Part shown: positions 1,891-14,474 of the stretch, one piece after another
Position numbering within the stretch: the stretch's first letter is position 1
Layout: each line of letters starts with the position of its first letter
Assembly (NCBI GenBank): GCA_016177735.1
Contig: JACOUS010000030.1
Span: 248,001-312,000, forward strand
Source of the DNA: Ignavibacteriales bacterium
GTDB taxonomy: Bacteria > Bacteroidota > Ignavibacteria > Ignavibacteriales > Melioribacteraceae
Direction: 5' to 3'
Length of the DNA: 64,000 nucleotides
Position numbers and translations under genes: made by a program
The notes under the pieces: model-generated
Databases searched by the model: none
What the model was told of the DNA's origin: nothing
What the model saw: only the letters and a program-made list of their open reading frames with translations

Positions 1891-1967
1891 ATACTTCTGT
1901 ACCGTACCATCAACTGATTAATCTCATAATTAATTATATTGTGCACAACAACTATCTTTTCTTGAAT

Positions 1968-4900
1968 ATGAAAATGAAAACGATCCAACTTTCGAGCAAG
2001 TTTTTTACTGACAATTCATTATTTGGCGAAAACCAATTTCCCAAATTCGAATTTCACATAGCAAAAGAAATTAGAAAGAAGTACGAAGTTGACGATGAAT
2101 TATTTTCAATTGCGGGAAATGTTGTATTTACAAACAATCTTGCCGTGCGGAAATTTGTAAAAAAGATTAACGACAAAAGACCGATTGACATGCAAGTAAA
2201 AGCCGGCGAAGTAAATGCTGCCGGTCTGCTCGATGAAATTTATCATTACATGTTTAGATTGTACGAACAGCAAGTTAATCCCGGTGCTGTTAAAAAAGCG
2301 CTCGATCATCTCAACACAACTTTTGGTGCGGAGAGCACACGCAAAATTCTTTTCGATTTTGTTTCCGTATTCCCTCCGCTCGAAGTTTACAAAGGATATA
2401 CAAGCTCTTTCGATTACTTAAATTCGTTCACTGCCGACCGTTCCAATGCCAGGATTGTTCTCGAAGAAATGATTTTGTTATCGTTTGCTAATATTAATCC
2501 GGCTAACAAAAATATTCTTGAACTGTTCGATCAAAATTATCTTGCCGGGAAAGATTTGTTTGTAAAATCATTGAGCACACTCGAACTCTTTTTTCAAAAC
2601 GAAAAAAAGTTTGGTCCGGATAACCACGACCTCTTTACGTTTTTTAAGACGCCGATTTTTGCTAATCCCGACAGCATCGAAGCGCAGCTCGATTTTATCC
2701 GTGAGAAGTGGGGAATCCTTTTAGATGAAAAGTTTATTACGCGTTTGCTGAGCAGTAAAGATTTGATTCGAGAAGATTATTCTTTCGGAGGCTTCGGTGG
2801 AGTTGGCGGCGCACCGGCAGTCGTACCTCAATACAAAAGCAAAAAGATTGATGCAGATTTTTTGATGCTCGGCAAATCGGGTTACAAGTATGCCGCAGAC
2901 GTGTGGAAAGATTACGAAGAGCCTGAAAATTTTACGAGCGATATCGATTGGATGCCCAAAGTTGTTCTGCTTGCAAAAAATACTTACGTGTGGCTCGATC
3001 AATTATCAAAAAAATATCAGCGGCACATAAAAACTCTCGATCAAATTCCGGACGAAGAACTCGATCTGCTTGCAAGCCACGGCTTTAACGGGTTGTGGCT
3101 GATTGGAATTTGGGAACGAAGCGGTGCATCAAAAAAAATAAAACATATACTTGGGAACATTGATGCAGTTGCATCTGCGTATTCACTTTATGATTATCAA
3201 ATTGCATGGGATATCGGCGGAGAAGATGCATATAATAATTTGAATCACCGGGCACGTGCGCGCGGAATCCGGCTTGCGAGTGATATGGTTCCGAACCACA
3301 CCGGAATTTTTTCAAAGTGGGTTGTCGATCATCCCGATTATTTTATTCAAACAAATAATCCTCCGTTTCCAAATCATCGTTTCAGCGGACCCGATCTTTC
3401 CGATGACCAATCGGTTCAATTAAGAATTGAAGACGGCTACTGGAATCGTTCCGATGCAGCAGTTGTGTTTCAGAGAATTGATAACCGCACCGGTGAAACA
3501 ATTTATATTTATCACGGCAACGACGGAACCAACATGCCGTGGAATGATACCGCACAACTCAATATGCTGAAAGCTGAAGTGCGCGAAGCGGTGATACAAA
3601 AAATTTTTGAAGTCGCACGAAAGTTTTCGATCATCCGTTTTGATGCCGCGATGACGCTTGCCAAAAAACATTTTTCGCGTCTGTGGTATCCGGCTCCGGG
3701 CAGAGGAGGTGATATTCCTTCACGCACAGATTATGCAATGAGTCAAAAAGAATTTGATGAATTGTTTCCAAAAGAATTTTGGAGAGAGGTTGTTGATCGA
3801 ATAAATGCTGAGATGCCCGAAACACTTTTGCTTGCCGAAGCATTCTGGCTGATGGAAGGGTATTTTGTGCGTACCCTTGGAATGCACCGCGTTTACAATT
3901 CTGCTTTCATGCACATGATGATGAAAGAAGAAAATGCAAAGTACCGCGATCTAATTTCAAACACGCTCGAATTCGAGCCGGAGATTTTAAAACGATATGT
4001 GAACTTCATGAGCAACCCCGATGAAGAAACTGCGATTAAACAATTCGGAACGGACGATAAATATTTTGGCGTCTGTACAATGATGGTTACTCTGCCCGGT
4101 CTGCCGATGTTTGCGCATGGACAAATTGAAGGCTACACAGAAAAGTACGGAATGGAATACCAGCGCGCGTACTATCACGAAGTTCCGAATCAATGGCTTA
4201 TTGACCGTCATCAGCGCGAAATTTTTCCGTTGATGAAAAAGCGGTATCTCTTCAGTAATGTTACCAATTTTTGGCTCTTCGATTTTATCGACGGCTACGG
4301 GTCTGTTAACGAAAATGTTTTTGTATTCTCAAATTTTGAAAGAGGCGAACGAACACTTGTATTTTTTAATAACAAGTTCGAATATAGCTCCGGCAGAATT
4401 TTAAGCTCGTCTCCGAAACTTGTTGACAAACAATTACAAACCAAATCGCTTGCCGAAGCTCTTCAATTGAATTTATCGCCGGATCATTTTTATATGTTCC
4501 GCGAACATGTTTCCGGTCTCGAATATTTGAAATCGGGAAAAGATTTTGCAAACGGTTTCAATGTTGAACTTGGGGCATTCAAATATCTTGTCTATCTCGA
4601 CTTTCATGAAATATATGATGAAGACGGTAATTGGAAAAAATTAGCGCGCCGCTTGCAAGGCAATGGTGTCCCAAGTGTTGCTCGTACTTTTGCAGAAATG
4701 ATTCTCGAACCGGTTCACGCAGCGTTTGAAGAGTTGTTTGATCCGGAATCATTGAGCGGTTTCATTCAAACTTGCATACTTGATGAGGATGACGAACAGA
4801 GCAAAGAAGCAAGAATTAAATTTATTGATAAAAAATACGGCAAGCTGTTAAAAACTTTGAAGGCACATACCGGACAATCAAAAGATATAAAACCGATTCT

Positions 4901-5618
4901 AAACGATTTTGATAAAGAAATTCTTGCCGTAAAATCCTTAAATGAAATTTTAGAACAATATTTTCCGGCGGAAGCAAATATTATCAATAATGAATTGCAC
5001 AAAGCAGTTCTCACAAATCGTGATGCAAACTACAATGAAAACTCTTTGATGTTTGTGCTGAAACTTGCTGTCTCCAAAATTAATTGTTTGTTCGAAGGGA
5101 AAAGTGAGTTGGACAAGAAAAATTATATCGAAAAATTTCTTCTTGATACTCCGATCGGTAGAATACTTCAAAGGCTTGGCAAAGGCGGCTACGAAGTTGA
5201 ACGGGGAATAACTTTCTTGAATATTTTTAATGAACGAAACGAGATCGTTGATAATTTATTTGTGAGTGATAGCGGCGGTGAAAACAAAGAAGTTTCTCAC
5301 AGAAATAAAACGCTGATAAAATTTTTGGATAACAGCGATGTGAAAAATTATATCGGCGCGAATGAATATCACGGCACATTTTTTTACAGCAAAGAAAATT
5401 TTGAAGAGATTCTCTCCTGGATATTTACCTTTTCACTGCTGCAATCTGTTAATGCGAGAATGAGCAGCGGAGAAAATTCTAAAAAGAAAAACGGGGAAGA
5501 TTCAACAGTGCGCATAAACGAAATTAATCTTGCTTTCGCAGCATACAAAGAAATTGTCTCTCTTTCGGATGAATCGGGTTACAAACTTGATGCGTTGATG
5601 GATAAATTACAAGAATAA
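1968..5618 (+). CDS. GH13-family alpha-amylase-like enzyme with long flanking regions
   Basis: About 1216 residues, far longer than a typical GH13 enzyme (450-700). The catalytic barrel lies roughly at residues 370-840: region I SDMVPNH (Asp439, His444), region II IIRFDAAMTLAKKH with nucleophile Asp559, and region III LLAEAFW with acid/base Glu624. Region IV lacks the common NHD and reads FGTDDKYFG, followed by PGLPMFAHGQIEG, so the stabilising Asp must come from this variant. The N-terminal ~370 and C-terminal ~370 residues are mainly helical and unrecognised. No signal peptide is seen, so it is probably cytoplasmic and acts on glycogen or maltodextrin. ATG 1968 is chosen; a GTG at 1941 and an ATG at 1974 are alternatives, and no clear Shine-Dalgarno decides. 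Confidence 0.85.
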   Translation: MKMKTIQLSSKFFTDNSLFGENQFPKFEFHIAKEIRKKYEVDDELFSIAGNVVFTNNLAVRKFVKKINDKRPIDMQVKAGEVNAAGLLDEIYHYMFRLYEQQVNPGAVKKALDHLNTTFGAESTRKILFDFVSVFPPLEVYKGYTSSFDYLNSFTADRSNARIVLEEMILLSFANINPANKNILELFDQNYLAGKDLFVKSLSTLELFFQNEKKFGPDNHDLFTFFKTPIFANPDSIEAQLDFIREKWGILLDEKFITRLLSSKDLIREDYSFGGFGGVGGAPAVVPQYKSKKIDADFLMLGKSGYKYAADVWKDYEEPENFTSDIDWMPKVVLLAKNTYVWLDQLSKKYQRHIKTLDQIPDEELDLLASHGFNGLWLIGIWERSGASKKIKHILGNIDAVASAYSLYDYQIAWDIGGEDAYNNLNHRARARGIRLASDMVPNHTGIFSKWVVDHPDYFIQTNNPPFPNHRFSGPDLSDDQSVQLRIEDGYWNRSDAAVVFQRIDNRTGETIYIYHGNDGTNMPWNDTAQLNMLKAEVREAVIQKIFEVARKFSIIRFDAAMTLAKKHFSRLWYPAPGRGGDIPSRTDYAMSQKEFDELFPKEFWREVVDRINAEMPETLLLAEAFWLMEGYFVRTLGMHRVYNSAFMHMMMKEENAKYRDLISNTLEFEPEILKRYVNFMSNPDEETAIKQFGTDDKYFGVCTMMVTLPGLPMFAHGQIEGYTEKYGMEYQRAYYHEVPNQWLIDRHQREIFPLMKKRYLFSNVTNFWLFDFIDGYGSVNENVFVFSNFERGERTLVFFNNKFEYSSGRILSSSPKLVDKQLQTKSLAEALQLNLSPDHFYMFREHVSGLEYLKSGKDFANGFNVELGAFKYLVYLDFHEIYDEDGNWKKLARRLQGNGVPSVARTFAEMILEPVHAAFEELFDPESLSGFIQTCILDEDDEQSKEARIKFIDKKYGKLLKTLKAHTGQSKDIKPILNDFDKEILAVKSLNEILEQYFPAEANIINNELHKAVLTNRDANYNENSLMFVLKLAVSKINCLFEGKSELDKKNYIEKFLLDTPIGRILQRLGKGGYEVERGITFLNIFNERNEIVDNLFVSDSGGENKEVSHRNKTLIKFLDNSDVKNYIGANEYHGTFFYSKENFEEILSWIFTFSLLQSVNARMSSGENSKKKNGEDSTVRINEINLAFAAYKEIVSLSDESGYKLDALMDKLQE

Positions 5619-5636
5619 TAACAAGCATTTAATTTT

Positions 5637-6692
5637 ATGGGATATGATTTCCTAAAAATTCGAGAGCACATTACTGCAGTTTCTAAGGATACTATTAATC
5701 ATTCCCAGCTTACTGAACTAGTTAAAATCTCCCGTCTAATCATTCGGTCGTTTATTTATAATTATCGTTCGAATGCCCTGAAGTTACTTTCTAATCACGG
5801 TATTACATTGTTAGACTTATCTTACGACTGTATTGCAGAAGCTTTCAGACGAAATCAAGAGAACAAATTTTTTCTTATTAAAAAATTTATTTCTTCACTA
5901 AAAGAAGATATCGAAGATATTAATGAAACTAATCTCTTCCGCGCTTATAAAAGCTTCTTAATAAAAATAGCTTCAGTTCAGCTGTCCAGATTGTATTCAC
6001 AATACGATCCGATCGGCGCAAAAATTATCAGAAATATTAAAGATGCTATAAATGAAGCAGCATTGCAAAAATCCGAAAAGTTCATTTTGAAAAAAGAGCT
6101 TTGTGGAGATATTCTTATTGTTAAAGAATGTTTGCCGTCGGAAGTTGTTAATGAATTCCCTTTAGAAAGACTAGAAGCGGAATTTAGTATGGACGGCAAA
6201 AAATTAAATGTTGTAAATATGCTTGATCAGCTTTACAAAATTTTGTCGGAACAAGCAGAATACAGAAAGAGTGTTCTTCTTTGGGATGTTGTGGTGTTAT
6301 TCAAAAAATATTATGGTGCACTCTACGACAACAATTTTGAAATTAACGAAGACTTACTTTTATCCGGTATTAAAACCGATGGATTTGAAGAAGTAGAAAT
6401 TGCTCTGCTTAAACAAAAAATCGAAAACTTTATTAAAGAAAAAATATTTCTGGACTATCTGGTTAAATCAAAATTTAATAAAGAGGAAGCCGAATCGGTT
6501 TACTCAACAATAACAGATATTGTAAGTGACTTGTGTTCGGGGGTAAACACAAAGGAGACTATTTATGATTACTTCTCACATCATTATCAAATCAGTAAAA
6601 ATGATTACCTCAAAAATTATAAGACTAGACTTGAATACCTTGTAAAACTAGTACGTAGTGAGCTTTCAAACTATATGTTGAATGAAACATAA
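5637..6692 (+). CDS. Hypothetical helical protein, possibly sigma-70-like
   Basis: A 351-residue, almost entirely helical, basic protein without signal peptide or membrane segment. Residues ~45-135 (GITLLDLSYDCIAEAF, then FRAYKSFLIKIASVQLSRLY) have the spacing expected of a sigma-70 region 2-like helical bundle, and the C-terminal ~70 residues could be a region 4-like helical domain, but no helix-turn-helix is clear. Support for a sigma role is mostly contextual: the next gene encodes a zf-HC2-like zinc-finger membrane protein of anti-sigma type. It starts 18 bp after the GH13 gene, so co-transcription is likely. Function stays unassigned; a structural or regulatory protein with no sigma activity is equally possible. 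Confidence 0.65.
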   Translation: MGYDFLKIREHITAVSKDTINHSQLTELVKISRLIIRSFIYNYRSNALKLLSNHGITLLDLSYDCIAEAFRRNQENKFFLIKKFISSLKEDIEDINETNLFRAYKSFLIKIASVQLSRLYSQYDPIGAKIIRNIKDAINEAALQKSEKFILKKELCGDILIVKECLPSEVVNEFPLERLEAEFSMDGKKLNVVNMLDQLYKILSEQAEYRKSVLLWDVVVLFKKYYGALYDNNFEINEDLLLSGIKTDGFEEVEIALLKQKIENFIKEKIFLDYLVKSKFNKEEAESVYSTITDIVSDLCSGVNTKETIYDYFSHHYQISKNDYLKNYKTRLEYLVKLVRSELSNYMLNET

Positions 6693-6749
6693 TTTTTCAG
6701 CAAGGGCTTTTAACCGTTGCAATTATATTATAGAAAAGAGAAAAACAAA

Positions 6750-8150
6750 ATGTCATTACATATTTCCGATAGTAAATTAGAATTATATTTTCTCGACAGC
6801 TCACAATTAGAATTAGAAGAGCGCGAAAAAATTGAAAAACATATTTCCTCGTGTCCAATGTGCAGTGAGAATTTTGAGAAAGTGAAGGATTATTATTCAT
6901 TTATTCAAAAGAATATCAACGAAGACGAAGTTGGTGATTCACAGACTGCTAAAAAAATACTCGATCAAAACAATCCGGTTGGTGGATCCAAATTACTCTC
7001 TGAAAATAAACTTACGGTTAAAGTCTATAACGGTAATTATGAAATTGTTTCAGCAAGGGAGGAGCCGCTTGTCAAAAAAGTTGAAGACTTAATTAGAATT
7101 TACCCGTTGAGATTTGCCGGTGCTTTTGGCTTTGCCGGTTTGTTGATAGCTGTTTTTTTTATGATGTTGAAACCCGACAAAAAATATATTAATCCAACCC
7201 TTGCTGTTATAAAAGAAAACGTGTTAACTGTTTACAATGAAATGGGGGATGTGTTGTGGAAAAAAGCTGTTCCCGGTATAGAAAATTTTAGAACAGACCT
7301 TCCAAAAAATCAAAGCAATGTAAGAGGATTGCTGCTTGATGATTTAAATAACGACGGCATAAATGAATTATTAATTACGGGCAATTATTCTTATCGGGGA
7401 ATTTTTGCAAGCGATACAATTTACTGTTTTGATCCATCGGGGAATATTAAATGGAAATATGGATGTGGCAGTTTTTCCGCTTTGAATACCCCAAATTGGA
7501 AACACTCGCGCTGGCAAATCACCGATTACTTTGTCGTCAAAAGCAAAAAGGAGAAAAGATTATTCGTTATTGCCGGTACGAATTTTGCCCCTTCAAAAAT
7601 TTTTGAATTGGATTTCAATTCGGGGAAAATCAAACAAGAATTTTATAATTCAGGTGGAATTACCGCAGCGGTATTATTCGATGTAGATAATGACGGGTAT
7701 GACGAAATAATTCTTGGCGGAATAAATAATGCATTTAGTTCTGCTTTCACTGCTGTTTTTGAACCGGATAGCGTTAATGGATTTAGTCCCTCTACGGAAT
7801 TATATGTTCCTGATTCATTACAAAAAAATTCTGCTGTTAGGTACATTCTTTTCCGGGCAACCAATTATATGAAAGCTGTCAGTCTTACGGATTATAACAT
7901 GGTTAATCAATTCTTAATTTCAAAAGAAGAAAAAACAATTACTGTATATGCCGAAGAAGTCCCTGGTGATACCGAATATAATGGTTCTGTTCTTTACAAC
8001 TTTGATCTGGATTGGAATGTTCGTGGAGTGGTTCTATCTGATGATTTTGTTGCTAACTATAACCGTTTACTTGCTAAAGGAAAAGTAAAAGAACCGCTTG
8101 ACAGCAATTACACAAAAAAACTTGCTGAAGGAGTAACGTTCTTGAAATAA
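6750..8150 (+). CDS. Zinc-finger (zf-HC2-like) single-pass membrane protein with FG-GAP-like propeller
   Basis: 466 residues from ATG 6750; a TTG at 6717 would add 11 residues of poor quality. The N-terminal ~45 residues end in KHISSCPMC, the H-x3-C-x2-C zinc site of anti-sigma factors. One membrane helix follows at residues ~124-143 (FAGAFGFAGLLIAVFFMML). The remaining ~320 residues carry FG-GAP/VCBS-like acidic loops, for example DDLNNDGINE and DVDNDGYDE, typical of calcium-binding beta-propellers. The layout therefore places a cytoplasmic zinc finger and a periplasmic propeller on either side of the inner membrane, suitable for transmitting an envelope signal to the preceding possible sigma-like protein. 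No direct evidence of sigma binding exists. Confidence 0.7.
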   Translation: MSLHISDSKLELYFLDSSQLELEEREKIEKHISSCPMCSENFEKVKDYYSFIQKNINEDEVGDSQTAKKILDQNNPVGGSKLLSENKLTVKVYNGNYEIVSAREEPLVKKVEDLIRIYPLRFAGAFGFAGLLIAVFFMMLKPDKKYINPTLAVIKENVLTVYNEMGDVLWKKAVPGIENFRTDLPKNQSNVRGLLLDDLNNDGINELLITGNYSYRGIFASDTIYCFDPSGNIKWKYGCGSFSALNTPNWKHSRWQITDYFVVKSKKEKRLFVIAGTNFAPSKIFELDFNSGKIKQEFYNSGGITAAVLFDVDNDGYDEIILGGINNAFSSAFTAVFEPDSVNGFSPSTELYVPDSLQKNSAVRYILFRATNYMKAVSLTDYNMVNQFLISKEEKTITVYAEEVPGDTEYNGSVLYNFDLDWNVRGVVLSDDFVANYNRLLAKGKVKEPLDSNYTKKLAEGVTFLK

Positions 8151-8179: not shown

Positions 8180-8491
8180 TTAAACAATGACTATACTTTC
8201 TTTTTCAACTTCTTTTATAAAATCATTTCCGGATAAATAATCACTTGTTGGATAGGGGTGGGCTTCTATAATTGGGTACTTAATATTTACTTTAGAAAAC
8301 AATTTCAGATTTTCAAAAACATTATCTGTGAACTGATCCGAGATAAGCAATAAATCAATATCGGAATGTTCGTAAGCATTGTTTTTTACATACGATCCGA
8401 ATAAAAATACTTTGAAAAACGAAAGTCCTTTGGAACGGCATTCGTTAACAAAATCTGTAGCTGTTTTTATTGCAATTTCTCTTGGAGCCAT
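8180..8491 (-). CDS. MNT-type minimal nucleotidyltransferase (antitoxin-like)
   Basis: 103 residues with the nucleotidyltransferase signature G32-S33-x10-D44-x-D46 (FGSYVKNNAYEHSDIDLLL), the metal-binding motif of MntA-type enzymes. In characterised type VII systems MntA transfers AMP to its HEPN partner and neutralises it. It overlaps the 3' end of the upstream HEPN gene by 25 bp on the same strand, so the two are translationally linked. The C-terminal half is short, as in the family. It is convergent with the propeller gene that ends at 8150. Whether it acts as antitoxin here depends on the HEPN partner, whose active site is atypical. Confidence 0.85.
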   Translation of the reverse strand: MAPREIAIKTATDFVNECRSKGLSFFKVFLFGSYVKNNAYEHSDIDLLLISDQFTDNVFENLKLFSKVNIKYPIIEAHPYPTSDYLSGNDFIKEVEKESIVIV

Positions 8492-8862
8492 AGTTTAATC
8501 TCTTTTGTTTTAGCTATTATTTCATTCGTAAAATCATAATTACAAATCTGTTTCATTTTCGTTATATGTTCGGGGTATCTGCCTTCCAATTGAAAACGAT
8601 TTAAATTAAGCAAGAATTCATTTTGCTCATCAGATAACGTTAGGGGTGTTTGGGATAAAAGTAAATTGAGATTATGAGTTTTCGGCGGAACGTTTGTATC
8701 GTTGTGCTTTATCCACAATGCTTTACAGATTTTTTCAATTACAAGGTGAGCAAAAAACAAAGATTGAAGATATTTCTTACCTTCAAACAGAGTATTAACC
8801 ACCTCCCAGTCGTCTTCTGCTTGAGTGAGCCAATATTGAATATGCTCTTCTTTGCTTTTCAT
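8467..8862 (-). CDS. HEPN domain protein, partner of the MNT protein
   Basis: 131 residues from ATG 8862 (upstream codons in frame would add an unrelated Phe/Lys-rich stretch). Helical, with the HEPN-family helix LFFAHLVIEKICKALW and a later GRYPEH. The RNase motif R-x4-6-H of toxic HEPN proteins is not present: the only arginine close to a histidine gives R-x3-H (RYPEH). It may thus belong to the non-nucleolytic HEPN group that pairs with MNT proteins, or have a displaced active site. The gene is first in a two-gene operon with the nucleotidyltransferase and is divergent from the TIR gene, from which it is separated by 158 bp. Confidence 0.8.
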   Translation of the reverse strand: MKSKEEHIQYWLTQAEDDWEVVNTLFEGKKYLQSLFFAHLVIEKICKALWIKHNDTNVPPKTHNLNLLLSQTPLTLSDEQNEFLLNLNRFQLEGRYPEHITKMKQICNYDFTNEIIAKTKEIKLWLQEKLQ

Positions 8863-8882
8863 ACAACATAAAACTAATAATA

Positions 8883-8960: not shown

Positions 8961-9020
8961 TTTTCTGCAAATGTACCCCGGCGTGAGAATAGTATAGTAA
9001 CAAACCAACAAGGAGGGCAA

Positions 9021-9884
9021 ATGAAGGTCTATTTAATTTGGTCAGGTGAATTAAGCAGAGCTATTGCCCAAGCGTTTAAGGACTGGGTTCCAAATGTAAT
9101 AAGTAATGTTGAACTTTTTTTTTCTAAAAGTGATATCAGTGCTGGTACAAATTGGTTTCAAGAAATCTCAAAACAGCTTGAAAGCACCAACTTTGGGGTA
9201 ATTTTTCTTACCAAAGATAGTATTAATGCCCCCTGGATATTTTTTGAAACTGGAGCATTAGCAAAACACATATCCCAAGCTAGCATTTGCACTACTTTAA
9301 TTGATATTCAAACGACTGATATCGTTGGTCCTTTAACTCAATTTCAAGCAATAACCCTGAATAAAGAGGGGATGCTTGCATTAGCTAAATCAATAAATAA
9401 TTCAATAGATATACAACGTCTTCCTGACCGCATGTTATCTGATTTGTTTGAGATGAAGTGGCAAAGCTTTGAAGAAAAAATAAATGCAATTAAAATTTCA
9501 ATAAAAACCGTTACTACATCCCAGGCTTCTTTACCAAAACAGACGGAAAAAGAAGTAGTTGATGAAATACTGCGATTAACGCGTTCCATGAATCAAGCGA
9601 TGAATCAAGTACTGTCATACAAGAAAGAAGAATTACCCAAATCTGATGAACATGTAAAGGCGCAATTTTTAAAAGCTATTTCTACTTTAAAAATCAAAAA
9701 CAGAAAAATGCCATGCAATCTTTCTCTAATTAATGATGAGATACTTAGAGAAGACGAAAACTTTGATGTAAACAAAACAAGTTTTGGTTCTTTTGTTAAA
9801 CTCGCTATTTACTTTGAGGGGAAAGGAGTGATTACATTAGAAAAGCAAAATGATCATTATTACGTAAAATCAATTAATTTATGA
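9021..9884 (+). CDS. TIR-domain protein with putative C-terminal OST-HTH/LOTUS-like domain
   Basis: 287 residues, strong Shine-Dalgarno (AAGGAGGG). Residues 1-150 form a TIR domain: KVYLIWSGE at strand A, FFSKSDISAGTNW, IFLTKDSINAPW, and PWIFFETGALAK, in which Glu76 is at the position of the catalytic glutamate of NAD-cleaving TIR domains. A helical linker (~150-210) follows. Residues ~212-287 read like an OST-HTH/LOTUS winged helix: FLKAISTLKI, then NLSLINDEIL, FDVNKTSFGSFVKL and a final strand HYYVKSINL. LOTUS domains bind RNA, so this may be an RNA-sensing or RNA-targeted NADase. The TIR call is firm; the LOTUS call is inference. The gene is divergent from the HEPN/MNT pair and followed by a small membrane protein. 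Confidence 0.85.
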   Translation: MKVYLIWSGELSRAIAQAFKDWVPNVISNVELFFSKSDISAGTNWFQEISKQLESTNFGVIFLTKDSINAPWIFFETGALAKHISQASICTTLIDIQTTDIVGPLTQFQAITLNKEGMLALAKSINNSIDIQRLPDRMLSDLFEMKWQSFEEKINAIKISIKTVTTSQASLPKQTEKEVVDEILRLTRSMNQAMNQVLSYKKEELPKSDEHVKAQFLKAISTLKIKNRKMPCNLSLINDEILREDENFDVNKTSFGSFVKLAIYFEGKGVITLEKQNDHYYVKSINL

Positions 9885-9994: not shown

Positions 9995-10291
9995 ATGAAC
10001 GAGACTTACCAGACATTTGGCCAAACACTTAGGATGCCTTTTTTTCTTATTGCTCTCCTATTTTGGACAGTAGATGTGTTCCCTTTTATTTTCTCATTTG
10101 CGTTAATTTGTGCAGTTGGTCAGGTTATTTTATTCCCCTTCTTTTATTTTCTCGCGTTTATATTTAAAGCATTTGTAGGCGAGGGAGTGCCAAGTTTTAA
10201 AAATTACTGGATTGATTATACAGCCCGGTATCTCAGATGGCTTAACTTAGGCTACAAAAGAATTTATGTTTGGTTTATTAGTGGGAAATAA
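9995..10291 (+). CDS. Small two-helix membrane protein of unknown function
   Basis: 98 residues, with two hydrophobic segments at ~14-34 (FFLIALLFWTVDVFPFIFSF) and ~36-62, then a basic amphipathic tail (YLRWLNLGYKRIYVWF). No recognised family. It lies 110 bp downstream of the TIR gene on the same strand and directly after a 13-codon mini-ORF. Small membrane proteins beside TIR genes can be effectors or anchors, but nothing in the sequence proves a link. AT-rich like its neighbours. Confidence 0.55.
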   Translation: MNETYQTFGQTLRMPFFLIALLFWTVDVFPFIFSFALICAVGQVILFPFFYFLAFIFKAFVGEGVPSFKNYWIDYTARYLRWLNLGYKRIYVWFISGK

Positions 10292-10403: not shown

Positions 10404-11213
10404 GTGAAGCTAAAAATATATTTGCTCTTCTTTTTGTTACTCAGTTCATTATCGTATTCACAACAATTTAATTTGCTCTGGGAAAAAAGTATTCACGTAA
10501 ATGGTAGATTGTTTTTATTTGGAGACTTTAATAATGATAAATCATTAGATTTTGCATATACCGCCGAAGACAGTTTAATCATATTTGATAGTAACATGCA
10601 CGAATTATATTCAACTGATAAAGTTCCGTACTTGGATAGATATCTAAGTCCTATTGATATTACTGGTGATGGATATGCGGAAGTTTTTGCTAGTGTACAT
10701 GGTGGAGGCGGTATTGAAAAAATTGGGATTTATGATCTTATTCAAAAGGAATTTGTTTTTGAATACATTAATAAATTTGTTGGTTCCAGCAGTTGTTATT
10801 TCAGTTTAGTGGAGGATATAAATGGTGATGGTTTTATAGACATTATTATATCAAATGCTGACAGTAAAAATAATTATGATCCTGATATTACCTTATTTTT
10901 TTCAACTGATGTGCCGTTTACTAAAGTAAATAATGATTCAAATGTTCAGAATAGTTTCAAATTGAACCAAAACTATCCTAATCCATTCAATCCTTCTACA
11001 ACTATTCAATTTTCTGTTCCCAAAACGGAATCAGTGACTCTTGATGTTTATGATATACTTGGAAGAAATGTAACAAACCTTGTTAATGAAGGAAAAACTT
11101 CCGGCAATTATAAAGTAGAATTTAACGGGAGTAATCTTTCAAGCGGTGTCTACTTTTATCGATTGCAAGCCGGCAATTATTCAGATACAAAAAAATTTCT
11201 TCTCTTAAAGTAA
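10404..11213 (+). CDS. Secreted FG-GAP-like protein with T9SS type A sorting domain
   Basis: 269 residues starting at GTG 10404 behind TAGGAGGCTG. A signal peptide (KIYLLFFLLLSSLSYS) leads to a short propeller-like region with acidic loops (DFNNDKSLDF, DITGDGYAE, DINGDGFID), i.e. only a few FG-GAP-like repeats, fewer than a full seven-blade propeller. The last ~80 residues are a type IX sorting domain: NQNYPNPFNPSTTIQFSVP, YDILGRNV, SSGVYFYRLQAG and a basic end KKFLLLK. The protein is thus exported by Sec, then across the outer membrane by T9SS and probably attached at the surface. The short propeller suggests an internally truncated or minimal member. It stands alone, followed by a hairpin. 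Confidence 0.85.
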   Translation: MKLKIYLLFFLLLSSLSYSQQFNLLWEKSIHVNGRLFLFGDFNNDKSLDFAYTAEDSLIIFDSNMHELYSTDKVPYLDRYLSPIDITGDGYAEVFASVHGGGGIEKIGIYDLIQKEFVFEYINKFVGSSSCYFSLVEDINGDGFIDIIISNADSKNNYDPDITLFFSTDVPFTKVNNDSNVQNSFKLNQNYPNPFNPSTTIQFSVPKTESVTLDVYDILGRNVTNLVNEGKTSGNYKVEFNGSNLSSGVYFYRLQAGNYSDTKKFLLLK

Positions 11214-12102: not shown

Positions 12103-13623
12103 TCAATTCACGGTAACTTTTTCTTTTTCAAATTCTTCGACGAGCATTTTGTTTATTGCAGCGGCGGCGCGTCTGCCTTCACCCATGGCAAGAATTACTG
12201 TTGCGGCGCCGAGCACAATATCTCCGCCGGCAAAAATTTTATCAACGGATGTCTTCTGATTTTCATCTACTAAAATATTTCCCCACTTATTCACATTAAT
12301 TTCCGGAGTTGTTTGGCTGATCAACGGGTTACTACTGTTGCCGATTGCAACTATCACCGTGTCAACTTCCAAAATAAATTCGCTATTGGGGATAACAACG
12401 GGTCTGCGTCTGCCCGAACTATCCGGTTCGCCGAGTTCGTAACGCAAACATTCCATTGAATTAACGCGTCCTTTTTCATCGCCCAAAATTCTTTTTGCAT
12501 TTTGCAGAAAATAAAATTCAATCCCTTCTTCTTTTGCGTGTTCAACTTCTTCTTTGCGCGCCGGCATTTCTACCTCGGTCCTTCTGTAAACAACATAAAC
12601 ATTTTCGGCACCGAGACGTTTTGCCATTCGAGCCGAATCCATTGCAACATTACCTCCGCCGAGTACAGCAACATTTTTAGAAGGATAAATCGGTGTGTCT
12701 GCTTTTCCTTTTTCGAAAGCGCGCATAAGATTTGTACGTGTTAAATATTCATTGGCGGAAAAAACACCGACGAGATTTTCACCTTCTATATTCATGAATA
12801 GAGGAAGCCCGGCACCGGTACCGATAAATATTGCATCATATCCGTCTTTATCCATCAAGTCGATCAGCTTTCTTGTTTTGCCAACCACAAAATTTGTTTT
12901 GAACTCAACACCCATTGCAGAGAGCGTTTCAATTTCTCTATCAATAATATTATTCGGTAATCTGAATTCAGGGATACCATAACGAAGCACACCGCCGAGT
13001 TTATGAAATGCTTCGAACACCGTTACATGATGTCCTTCTCTTCGGCAGTCTGCGGCAACAACTAACCCAGCCGGACCACTGCCAACGACAGCAACTTTTT
13101 TCCCGGTTCCAGGTTTTATTTCCGGCACAGAAATTTTGCCGGTTGATCTTTCCCAATCGGCAATGAATCTTTCAAGTCTGCCAATTGCCACTGCTTTATC
13201 AATATCTTTTAACGCTTTGCCAACAGTACAATTTTGCTGGCATTGAACTTCTTGCGGACAAACTCTTCCGCAAATTGCCGGAAGGAGAGAAGCTTCTTTA
13301 ATTACGGAGGCGGCATTTTCAAAATCTTCATGCGCAACGTGATCGATAAATCTTGGTATATCAATTTTAACCGGACAGTCTTCAACACAATTTTTCTTTA
13401 CACACTGTAAGCATCTCATCGCTTCGATTCTTGCTTGTTCGAGTGTGTAACCGAGTGCAACTTCATCGAGATTGCGAATTCTTTCATGCGGATTTTGAGA
13501 CGGCATTTCTTGCGGCGGAATGTGTGTCCGTTCTTTCGGTTTCATGTCGTCGATTCTGGAAATGTATTCAACAATAAGTTGTTTTGCTTCTTCGGATAAT
13601 TGTTCGGCAGTTTTGGAAATCAT
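12103..13623 (-). CDS. nfnB: NfnB-type / glutamate synthase small subunit-like FAD oxidoreductase
   Basis: 506 residues from ATG 13623, which overlaps the nfnA stop as ATGA; an upstream in-frame start at 13665 would lie inside nfnA. N-terminal cysteine-rich iron-sulfur domain: CLQCVKKNCVEDCPV and CGRVCPQEVQCQQNC (residues ~70-135). Two dinucleotide folds follow: VAVVGSGPAGLVVAADC (~176) for FAD and NVAVLGGGNVAMDSARMA (~315) for NADPH, then GGDIVLGAATVI near the C-terminus. With the adjacent NfnA this is best explained as the electron-bifurcating ferredoxin:NADP oxidoreductase, coupling NADPH to NADH and ferredoxin. Homologues called GltD or SudA share the fold, but no large glutamate synthase subunit is adjacent. 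Confidence 0.85.
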   Translation of the reverse strand: MISKTAEQLSEEAKQLIVEYISRIDDMKPKERTHIPPQEMPSQNPHERIRNLDEVALGYTLEQARIEAMRCLQCVKKNCVEDCPVKIDIPRFIDHVAHEDFENAASVIKEASLLPAICGRVCPQEVQCQQNCTVGKALKDIDKAVAIGRLERFIADWERSTGKISVPEIKPGTGKKVAVVGSGPAGLVVAADCRREGHHVTVFEAFHKLGGVLRYGIPEFRLPNNIIDREIETLSAMGVEFKTNFVVGKTRKLIDLMDKDGYDAIFIGTGAGLPLFMNIEGENLVGVFSANEYLTRTNLMRAFEKGKADTPIYPSKNVAVLGGGNVAMDSARMAKRLGAENVYVVYRRTEVEMPARKEEVEHAKEEGIEFYFLQNAKRILGDEKGRVNSMECLRYELGEPDSSGRRRPVVIPNSEFILEVDTVIVAIGNSSNPLISQTTPEINVNKWGNILVDENQKTSVDKIFAGGDIVLGAATVILAMGEGRRAAAAINKMLVEEFEKEKVTVN

Positions 13624-14474
13624 CGCACAGCCTCCTTCTGTTGAATTTGTTGTTCGAGGTAGCATTGATGCATCGTTCTTTCAAATTCTTTGTAGGAATT
13701 GAGGCGCGAGATCATGTTATCAAAATTAACTTTGTGTCCGTCGAATTCAGGACCGTCAACGCAGACAAATTTAACTTCGTTGCCAACGTTTACTCTGCAT
13801 CCGCCGCACATTCCGGTGCCGTCAACCATAATTGTGTTTAACGAAACTTGCGTAAACACTTCGTACGGTCTCGTCGTTTCCGAACAGAATTTCATCATGA
13901 TAGGAGGACCAATTGCAATTACCATATTTGGTTTCGGACTTCGTTCGCAAATTTCTTTTAGCGGTTCGGTAACAAGAGCTTTTCTTCCGTACGAGCCGTC
14001 ATCGGTGCATAAAATAAATTCATCTGCAATCGCTTTCATTTTGTCTTCAAGAATAATTAATTCTTTTGTGCGTGCGCCGATAATCGTAATAACATTATTG
14101 CCGGCTTTCTTCAAAGCTTGTGCAATCGGGTGAAGCGGTGCAACACCAATTCCGCCGCCAACGCAAACAACAGTTCCAAAATTTTCGATATGAGTTGGTT
14201 TGCCGAGCGGTCCAACAAGCGCCGGTATTTCTTCCCCTTCTTTTAGTAACGATAATGTTAATGTGCTTTTACCAACCACCTGAAAAATTATCGTGATCGA
14301 ACCTTCGCTTAAATCTGCATCTGCAATTGTAAGAGGAATCCTTTCTCCGTAATCTTCATCTACTTGAAGAATGATAAATTGTCCGGCAGATCTTTCTTCC
14401 GCAATCAGCGGAGCGTGCAGCTTCATAAGAAAAACATCTTTCGATAACTGCTGTCTGAATAATATTTTGCTCAT
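13620..14474 (-). CDS. nfnA: NfnA-type FAD/[2Fe-2S] NAD-binding subunit
   Basis: 284 residues of the ferredoxin-NADP reductase/dihydroorotate dehydrogenase electron-transfer family. FAD region: ERIPLTIAD (residues ~55-63); NAD region: VCVGGGIGVAPLHPIAQALK (~107-126); C-terminal [2Fe-2S] site: GTGMCGGCRVNVG followed by FVCVDGPEFDGH. Length and order match NfnA/SudB. The stop codon overlaps the nfnB start by ATGA, so the subunits are translationally coupled. The start has a good Shine-Dalgarno (CGAGGAGA). The complex would be cytoplasmic and exchange electrons among NADH, NADPH and ferredoxin. It is divergent from pntAA across a long imperfect palindrome. Confidence 0.85.
   Translation of the reverse strand: MSKILFRQQLSKDVFLMKLHAPLIAEERSAGQFIILQVDEDYGERIPLTIADADLSEGSITIIFQVVGKSTLTLSLLKEGEEIPALVGPLGKPTHIENFGTVVCVGGGIGVAPLHPIAQALKKAGNNVITIIGARTKELIILEDKMKAIADEFILCTDDGSYGRKALVTEPLKEICERSPKPNMVIAIGPPIMMKFCSETTRPYEVFTQVSLNTIMVDGTGMCGGCRVNVGNEVKFVCVDGPEFDGHKVNFDNMISRLNSYKEFERTMHQCYLEQQIQQKEAVR

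Follow-up and report, generated by a model that had tools for sequence, protein, structure and literature searches.

The whole stretch of DNA analysed here (64,000 nucleotides, referred to as the window) encodes a TIR protein that we read, on balance, as an immune effector that belongs to a large and mobile family and whose swappable tail supplies the input. The tail of the window protein appears to be LOTUS/OST-HTH-like, of the kind found behind NYN RNases, and RNA or an RNA-protein complex (RNP) would therefore be its most likely trigger. The TIR half and a conserved linker helix would constitute a fixed catalytic and assembly unit, and the C-terminal 80 residues an exchangeable input domain (sensor or bait), which in the window protein may be a divergent winged helix related to the LOTUS/OST-HTH domains. 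The RNA or RNP would be one appearing in phage-infected cells, and upon activation the TIR domain would oligomerise and either use up NAD+ or form a nucleotide signal. A tail acting as input and a TIR domain acting as output are likely by analogy with SpbK, and the input is probably received through the LOTUS-like fold, considering the RNA-binding role predicted for OST-HTH domains in PMC2848206.

The gene is intact. Its reading frame begins with an ATG at 9021, runs for 287 codons and closes with a stop at 9882-9884, and a ribosome-binding site precedes the start; the opposite strand, read in register, contains many stops. The genome of the window is rated 99.99% complete, and the window lies within a 384-kb contig. 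Features of the gene and the recognised tails of three relatives are collected in Table 1.

Table 1. Features of the TIR gene in the window, and tails of relatives recognised by Pfam.
Feature	Position	Strand	Basis
Complete TIR gene with predicted LOTUS-like tail, 287 aa	9021..9884	+	ORF reading
Ribosome-binding site aaggagg	9010..9016	+	read from sequence, just 5' of ATG 9021
TIR domain, residues 1-150	9021..9470	+	Pfam TIR_2, AlphaFold, Foldseek
WxxxE motif W72-E76, putative catalytic glutamate	9234..9248	+	W72, F75, E76 invariant in 143 rows
Linker helix, conserved (E182, R188), residues 176-202	9546..9626	+	conservation, model helix, DNA breaks
LOTUS-like (OST-HTH-related) winged-helix domain, predicted, residues 207-287	9639..9881	+	Stanieria NYN tail, WH_eIF2D, hhalign
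Core segment F248-L261 (FDVNKTSFGSFVKL)	9762..9803	+	gap-free hhalign alignment of the tail pair to OST-HTH FDPRNYGYRKLGEL (P 0.023)
Gene of a TIR protein with RNA_pol_A_CTD tail	L065 5001-5795		Pfam, 8.5e-10
Gene of a TIR protein with PcrA_UvrD_tudor tail	L040 5001-5792		Pfam, 9.4e-10
HTH_24 tail	L107		Pfam, 1.3e-5

The N-terminal half of the window protein matches Pfam TIR_2 (PF13676) at E 2.9e-6 with 28.2 bits, just above the cut-off of 28, and the same model matches 142 of 143 family members at E <= 0.01. Two further models extend beyond the domain, PADLOC TIR-TM matching residues 1-205 (E 8.8e-57) and PHROG 13899 matching residues 1-247 (E 2.3e-63). In a 143-row family alignment, composed of the window protein and 142 of its 163 distinct relatives (the first 145 listed minus three near-copies), G42, G59, W72, F75, E76, G78 and P104 are invariant; W72-E76 is presumably the WxxxE motif with the catalytic glutamate. 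The sequence-only reading, which had placed an open reading frame at 9021-9884 and a TIR domain with Glu76 at residues 1-150, is borne out in both respects by the start, stop and ribosome-binding site, by the TIR_2 match above its cut-off and by the invariance of E76. Unusual residues are found at four nearly fixed TIR positions, Y4, I6, L32 and S67, which are F, S, P and N, respectively, in at least 93% (up to 99%) of the relatives, so that full activity of the window protein is not assured; the domain is a putative NADase or signal-forming enzyme. In the AlphaFold model, built with 63 relatives, block means over residues 1-150 are 86-98, except for 76 and 67 at residues 31-50, and in a Foldseek search with the full model the top match was SPARTA TIR-APAZ, followed at rank 2 by the SpbK filament and at rank 31 by AbTir.

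At least 508 family relatives were confirmed in genomes, and the best 80 of these were retained; viral contigs yielded 121 relatives of the TIR protein, 80 of them retained. Relatives also occur in 11 records of the plasmid collection and 6 of the phage collection. The distribution is patchy near home. Among 97 close genomes, five have a match at E <= 0.001; one of the five is the own genome, and two of the matches are weak (6e-5 and 8e-4). In the own phylum 8 of 395 genomes match at E <= 1e-8, again with the own genome counted. Two relatives sit between the holin and antiterminator Q genes of a lambda-like prophage or phage, and one is encoded by the P2-like phage P2_AC1 (AC1). Other members were seen in further settings. 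A 14-kb Acidithiobacillus plasmid (L007 4001-8002) carries three clustered genes annotated as TIR proteins, and one member (L034) comes from an archaeal MAG (Methanothrix), to which its contig is possibly mis-binned. Two cyanobacterial members have a tail type of their own in common; cas10/Cmr2 (type III CRISPR) lies 98 bases downstream of one (L013 3001-3843), and a type III CRISPR RAMP gene lies about 1.4 kb upstream of the other (L010 4001-4834), beyond transposase genes.

Comparison of the sequences indicates that this family keeps its TIR half and exchanges its tail. Similarity among relatives ends past about residue 198, and the 166 distinct tails (173 proteins) fall into 84 clusters, including 65 singletons, when linked at phmmer E <= 1e-3, a criterion that would miss distant relations. 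Unlinked tails are carried by TIR parts that are up to 90.7% identical. Between the two halves lies the linker helix, in which 95% of the 142 relatives retain E182 and 97% retain R188. The segment from E182 to R188 (window 9564-9584) is conserved near the level of the TIR active site, although it lies outside the domain. A PDB match of the linker to mite allergens was weak and was dropped. The DNA of eight pairs of relatives was compared, taken mostly from the top of a list of pairs with similar TIR parts and unlinked tails, and the breaks seen fall at codons 179-196, within the linker helix. In three pairs (L126/L129, L117/L126 and L110/L128), the DNA is alike up to codons 184, 194 and 196, respectively, and then differs; similarity resumes no more than about 60 bases past the stop and continues for over 300 bases. 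In three others (L142/L145, L134/L166 and L130/L161), similarity is lost at codons 179-190 and does not resume over any long stretch. The pair L117/L129 shows no DNA break, and the pair L051/L055 gives no information, since the contig of L055 stops where the gene does.

Three of ten proteins scanned have a tail above the Pfam cut-off (Table 1), and seven have none. Over the 143 members, 37 Pfam families match at E <= 0.01, TIR models included, and most of the 25 listed are single weak matches. The tail of a further member (L071) contains four cysteines in two CxxC pairs and looks zinc-ribbon-like by eye, with no Pfam match at E <= 0.01. As an alternative to an RNA input, the winged-helix tail of the window protein may be a protein- or DNA-binding bait copied from phage-attacked cellular machinery, an integrated decoy that sets off the TIR domain once it is bound or modified by a phage factor. 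Direct sensing of a phage protein by a one-gene TIR is exemplified by SpbK, according to PMC11984713. Furthermore, other tails of the family copy cellular contact domains, namely the RNA polymerase alpha-CTD and the PcrA/UvrD tudor domain, and it is the latter that is carried by L040, whose TIR half is the closest to that of the window protein (41.9% identical). However, tails with a known domain are as few as counted above, and we know of no phage partner for any tail. The prediction of RNA binding for OST-HTH domains in PMC2848206 also argues against a bait of this kind, which we consider possible but doubtful.

One clear relative of the window tail was found in a 7.3-billion-base collection (tblastn, 2e-5), the C-terminus of an NYN nuclease of Stanieria cyanosphaera, in which 25 of 65 residues (38%) are identical over residues 207-271 of the window protein. 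The N-terminus of the Stanieria protein is an NYN domain (E 2.2e-17), and nearly all bacterial OST-HTH domains stand behind such a nuclease domain and are predicted to bind RNA, according to PMC2848206. The Pfam winged-helix model WH_eIF2D matches the window protein below threshold, at E 0.0022 for the whole protein and 4.5e-4 for the isolated domain, and also matches the Stanieria tail below threshold at E 5.5e-5. Run against 198 genomes, this model found one match better (1.2e-4) and one somewhat weaker (0.0015) than that of the window protein (5.2e-4), both in stop-broken frames, so that the WH_eIF2D match taken alone is moderate evidence. At the site of the Ghxph motif, which OST-HTH domains carry in the insertion that precedes helix 3 (PMC2848206), the window tail has SFGSF and the Stanieria tail SFKSF; the hydrophobic/polar/hydrophobic pattern is kept, and the motif glycine is replaced by serine.

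Profile comparisons place the tail pair, rather than the window tail by itself, near the OST-HTH domains. Pfam OST-HTH (PF12872) is absent from the matches at E <= 10 of both the whole window protein and its isolated domain, with HMMER filters that discard most matches above about E 0.1; the model has no match in the own genome of the window at E <= 0.01 and none in the Stanieria tail. Three sets of OST-HTH sequences were assembled: 20 loci of the own phylum, NYN-type by eye; 23 with the addition of three cyanobacterial NYN proteins confirmed by a local OST-HTH profile, among them L226 (Pfam OST-HTH, 8.5e-10); and 29 with the further addition of six cyanobacterial NYN tails chosen by eye (L223, L225, L227, L230, L231 and L232), two of which were scanned with Pfam, giving a sub-threshold OST-HTH match for L223 (0.017) and none for L232. 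In hhalign, the paired window and Stanieria tails reached P 0.023, 0.0013 and 6e-5 against the sets of 20, 23 and 29, respectively, and 1.3e-4 against 8 divergent sequences, scores that were equalled by 11, 1, 0 and 0 of 300 column shuffles and that weigh the pair and not the window tail alone. Ranked by itself in a field of 2177 sequences, which comprised 2000 shuffled versions of it and 176 tails of other proteins besides, the window tail came 65th, 7th and 2nd with the three sets (E 9.8, 1.7 and 0.23), none of them significant without Stanieria, and first, tied with a shuffle, with the 8 divergent sequences (E 0.13, not significant). Profiles that include the Stanieria tail score the window tail at E 5.7e-6 or 3.1e-8, mostly reflecting Stanieria itself, and a reverse HMM search was not significant, its best real match being the OST-HTH domain of L226 (i-E 0.49). 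AlphaFold yields no trusted fold for the tail, with a mean pLDDT of 62.9 for the tail alone and block means of 46-71 over residues 201-287 of the full model.

Other searches for the tail gave little. None of the 178 other family proteins, a number that includes duplicates and fragments, has the tail (best E 0.34), and in viral contigs no relative was confirmed with the window protein, its tail or the tail pair as query. A search of 196 genomes with the tail gave weak, partial matches, found in 14 other genomes with E values from 8.4e-5 to 0.05. Eight of the 14 matched loci resemble RNase HIII N-termini by eye (L183-L186, L188, L190, L192 and L195, in several genomes of the same order), and the other six resemble unrelated proteins by eye. 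All 14 were set aside as partial and weak, yet they weigh against certainty about the fold. A single match in 25 genomes lies in a frame with three stops and another in 244 genomes (L219) in a pilin-like frame by eye, and both were judged to be chance; in the PDB, the tail weakly matched chains of haemagglutinin and augmin, and these matches were dropped.

These results bring up a second alternative, in which the tail would be a small domain without kinship to LOTUS, or one whose resemblance to it is too distant for function. The 65th rank and the 11 equally good shuffles with the 20 canonical OST-HTH sequences are consistent with it, as are the better WH_eIF2D match in a broken frame, the RNase HIII-like loci and the poorly trusted model. 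On the other side, the NYN-nuclease match is independent of the OST-HTH and WH_eIF2D models, the Stanieria protein has the architecture of OST-HTH proteins and is itself matched by WH_eIF2D, at most 1 of 300 shuffles reaches the observed score with the wider OST-HTH sets, and the RNase HIII-like matches span at most about 52 of the 80 residues. This second alternative is unlikely, and a LOTUS-like winged-helix tail is moderately supported by these comparisons. We call the tail LOTUS-like and not a member of OST-HTH because the Pfam, single-sequence and reverse tests were non-significant, the motif site reads SFGSF, and the hhalign result belongs to the pair only. The sequence-only reading had proposed a LOTUS winged helix at about residues 212-287; the NYN-tail relative and hhalign speak for it, whereas the missing Pfam OST-HTH match, the change from glycine to serine and a pLDDT of 63 do not. 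Its FD-x3-SFG core needs correction to FD-x4-SFG (F248, D249, S254, F255 and G256). Profile-profile comparison, which it had suggested as a check, related the tail pair to OST-HTH and left the window tail alone without significance. It had also named a lack of homologues with this C-terminal part next to a TIR domain as a refutation; the count is indeed zero among the 178, an absence that does not discriminate because tail exchange is common in this TIR family.

In the neighbourhood of the gene, a HEPN (2e-15) and minimal nucleotidyltransferase (4.6e-9) pair of the HEPN/MNT toxin-antitoxin type, identified by Pfam, lies upstream and divergent from it (8180-8871, minus strand), and a 98-aa ORF with two hydrophobic segments lies directly downstream (9995-10291, plus strand). 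Synteny with a relative of another genus is kept at 1941-8150 and 12103-14474, with other genes in between, which fits a variable cargo site. T9SS sorting domains are also encoded near the TIR gene and would suit a genome from the Bacteroidota/Ignavibacteria side. A third alternative, compatible with the other readings, is an AC1-type TIR and membrane system, in which a TIR signal would open the small membrane protein encoded downstream; the two TM proteins of the AC1 locus and the two hydrophobic segments of the 98-aa ORF suggest it, but that ORF has no PADLOC or Pfam family match and is matched only twice, weakly (E 0.006 and 0.008), among 38 other genomes, and a small TM gene adjoins the TIR gene in 17 of 173 family loci, making this the least probable of the three, at a low level. 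The same count rules out a TIR and TM partnership as the general design, and the family is without a general membrane partner.

The preferred reading, an immune effector with an exchangeable input tail, can be carried further, if tentatively, to a cassette-exchange immune receptor with a constant TIR half and recombined sensor or decoy tails, some of which would be copies of cellular contact domains (alpha-CTD, UvrD tudor, HTH and NYN-type LOTUS). The window member might then be the first LOTUS-like, RNA-directed or RNA-triggered TIR enzyme without an Argonaute. Plant NLRs with integrated decoys are a parallel for such exchanged tails. The sequence-only reading did not know of a description of an RNA-switched or RNA-directed TIR as an antiviral design; in principle a TIR switched on by nucleic acid is already known from SPARTA. 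In the open-access literature, no description was found of a TIR and OST-HTH/LOTUS fusion (PMC8195603 included) or of tail cassette exchange in a TIR family, nothing was found on TIR-TM and 2TM-1TM-TIR as phage defence, and a search for integrated decoys together with bacterial anti-phage TIR proteins gave only a plant review. One catalytic half with exchanged tails, a few of them recognisable cellular copies, would make phage recognition testable tail by tail, and swapping the tails and observing whether the phage range follows would address how one-protein bacterial TIR systems recognise phages. LOTUS domains are RNA-binding modules of germ-cell granules and NYN RNases; a true LOTUS-like tail would link these modules to TIR-based immunity.

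Several known systems resemble the window protein in part. CAP12/Pycsar TIR effectors answer the cyclic nucleotides of a partner cyclase. Their model (PF10137) matches 30 of the 143 family members at E <= 0.01 (best 1.6e-5), the window protein not being among them, and no cyclase model match was found among the window neighbours scanned. SPARTA, a short Argonaute with TIR-APAZ, is the best PDB match of the window model; it includes an APAZ domain and pairs with an Argonaute that has a guide RNA, whereas the window protein has no APAZ match in Pfam and no Argonaute was found among four neighbour proteins scanned (the 98-aa ORF, MNT, HEPN and 10404-11213). The three-gene AC1 locus, cloned whole, protected E. 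coli C from lambda, LF82_P8 and P2, as reported in PMC9122126. Its products are TIR-TM, 1TM-TIR and 2TM-TIR by PADLOC, the latter two being TM proteins; the AC1 TIR protein has a homologous TIR half and linker (35.5% over window residues 1-204) and a C-terminal part unlike that of the window protein. Partners of the 1TM-TIR and 2TM-TIR types were not found beside the window gene, which is flanked by the TM ORF without a PADLOC match on one side and by the HEPN and nucleotidyltransferase genes on the other. SpbK of ICEBs1 is a TIR NADase activated by the phage portal protein YonE, which it binds via its non-TIR part (PMC11984713), and, like the window protein, it combines a sensor part and a TIR effector in a single protein; in SpbK, as described in that source, the sensor is N-terminal and the TIR domain C-terminal, in contrast to the TIR domain at residues 1-150 of the window protein. 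In the bacterial NYN/LK-nuclease-OST-HTH proteins described in PMC2848206, a domain like the window tail occupies the same C-terminal slot, with NYN as the effector in place of the TIR domain of the window protein.
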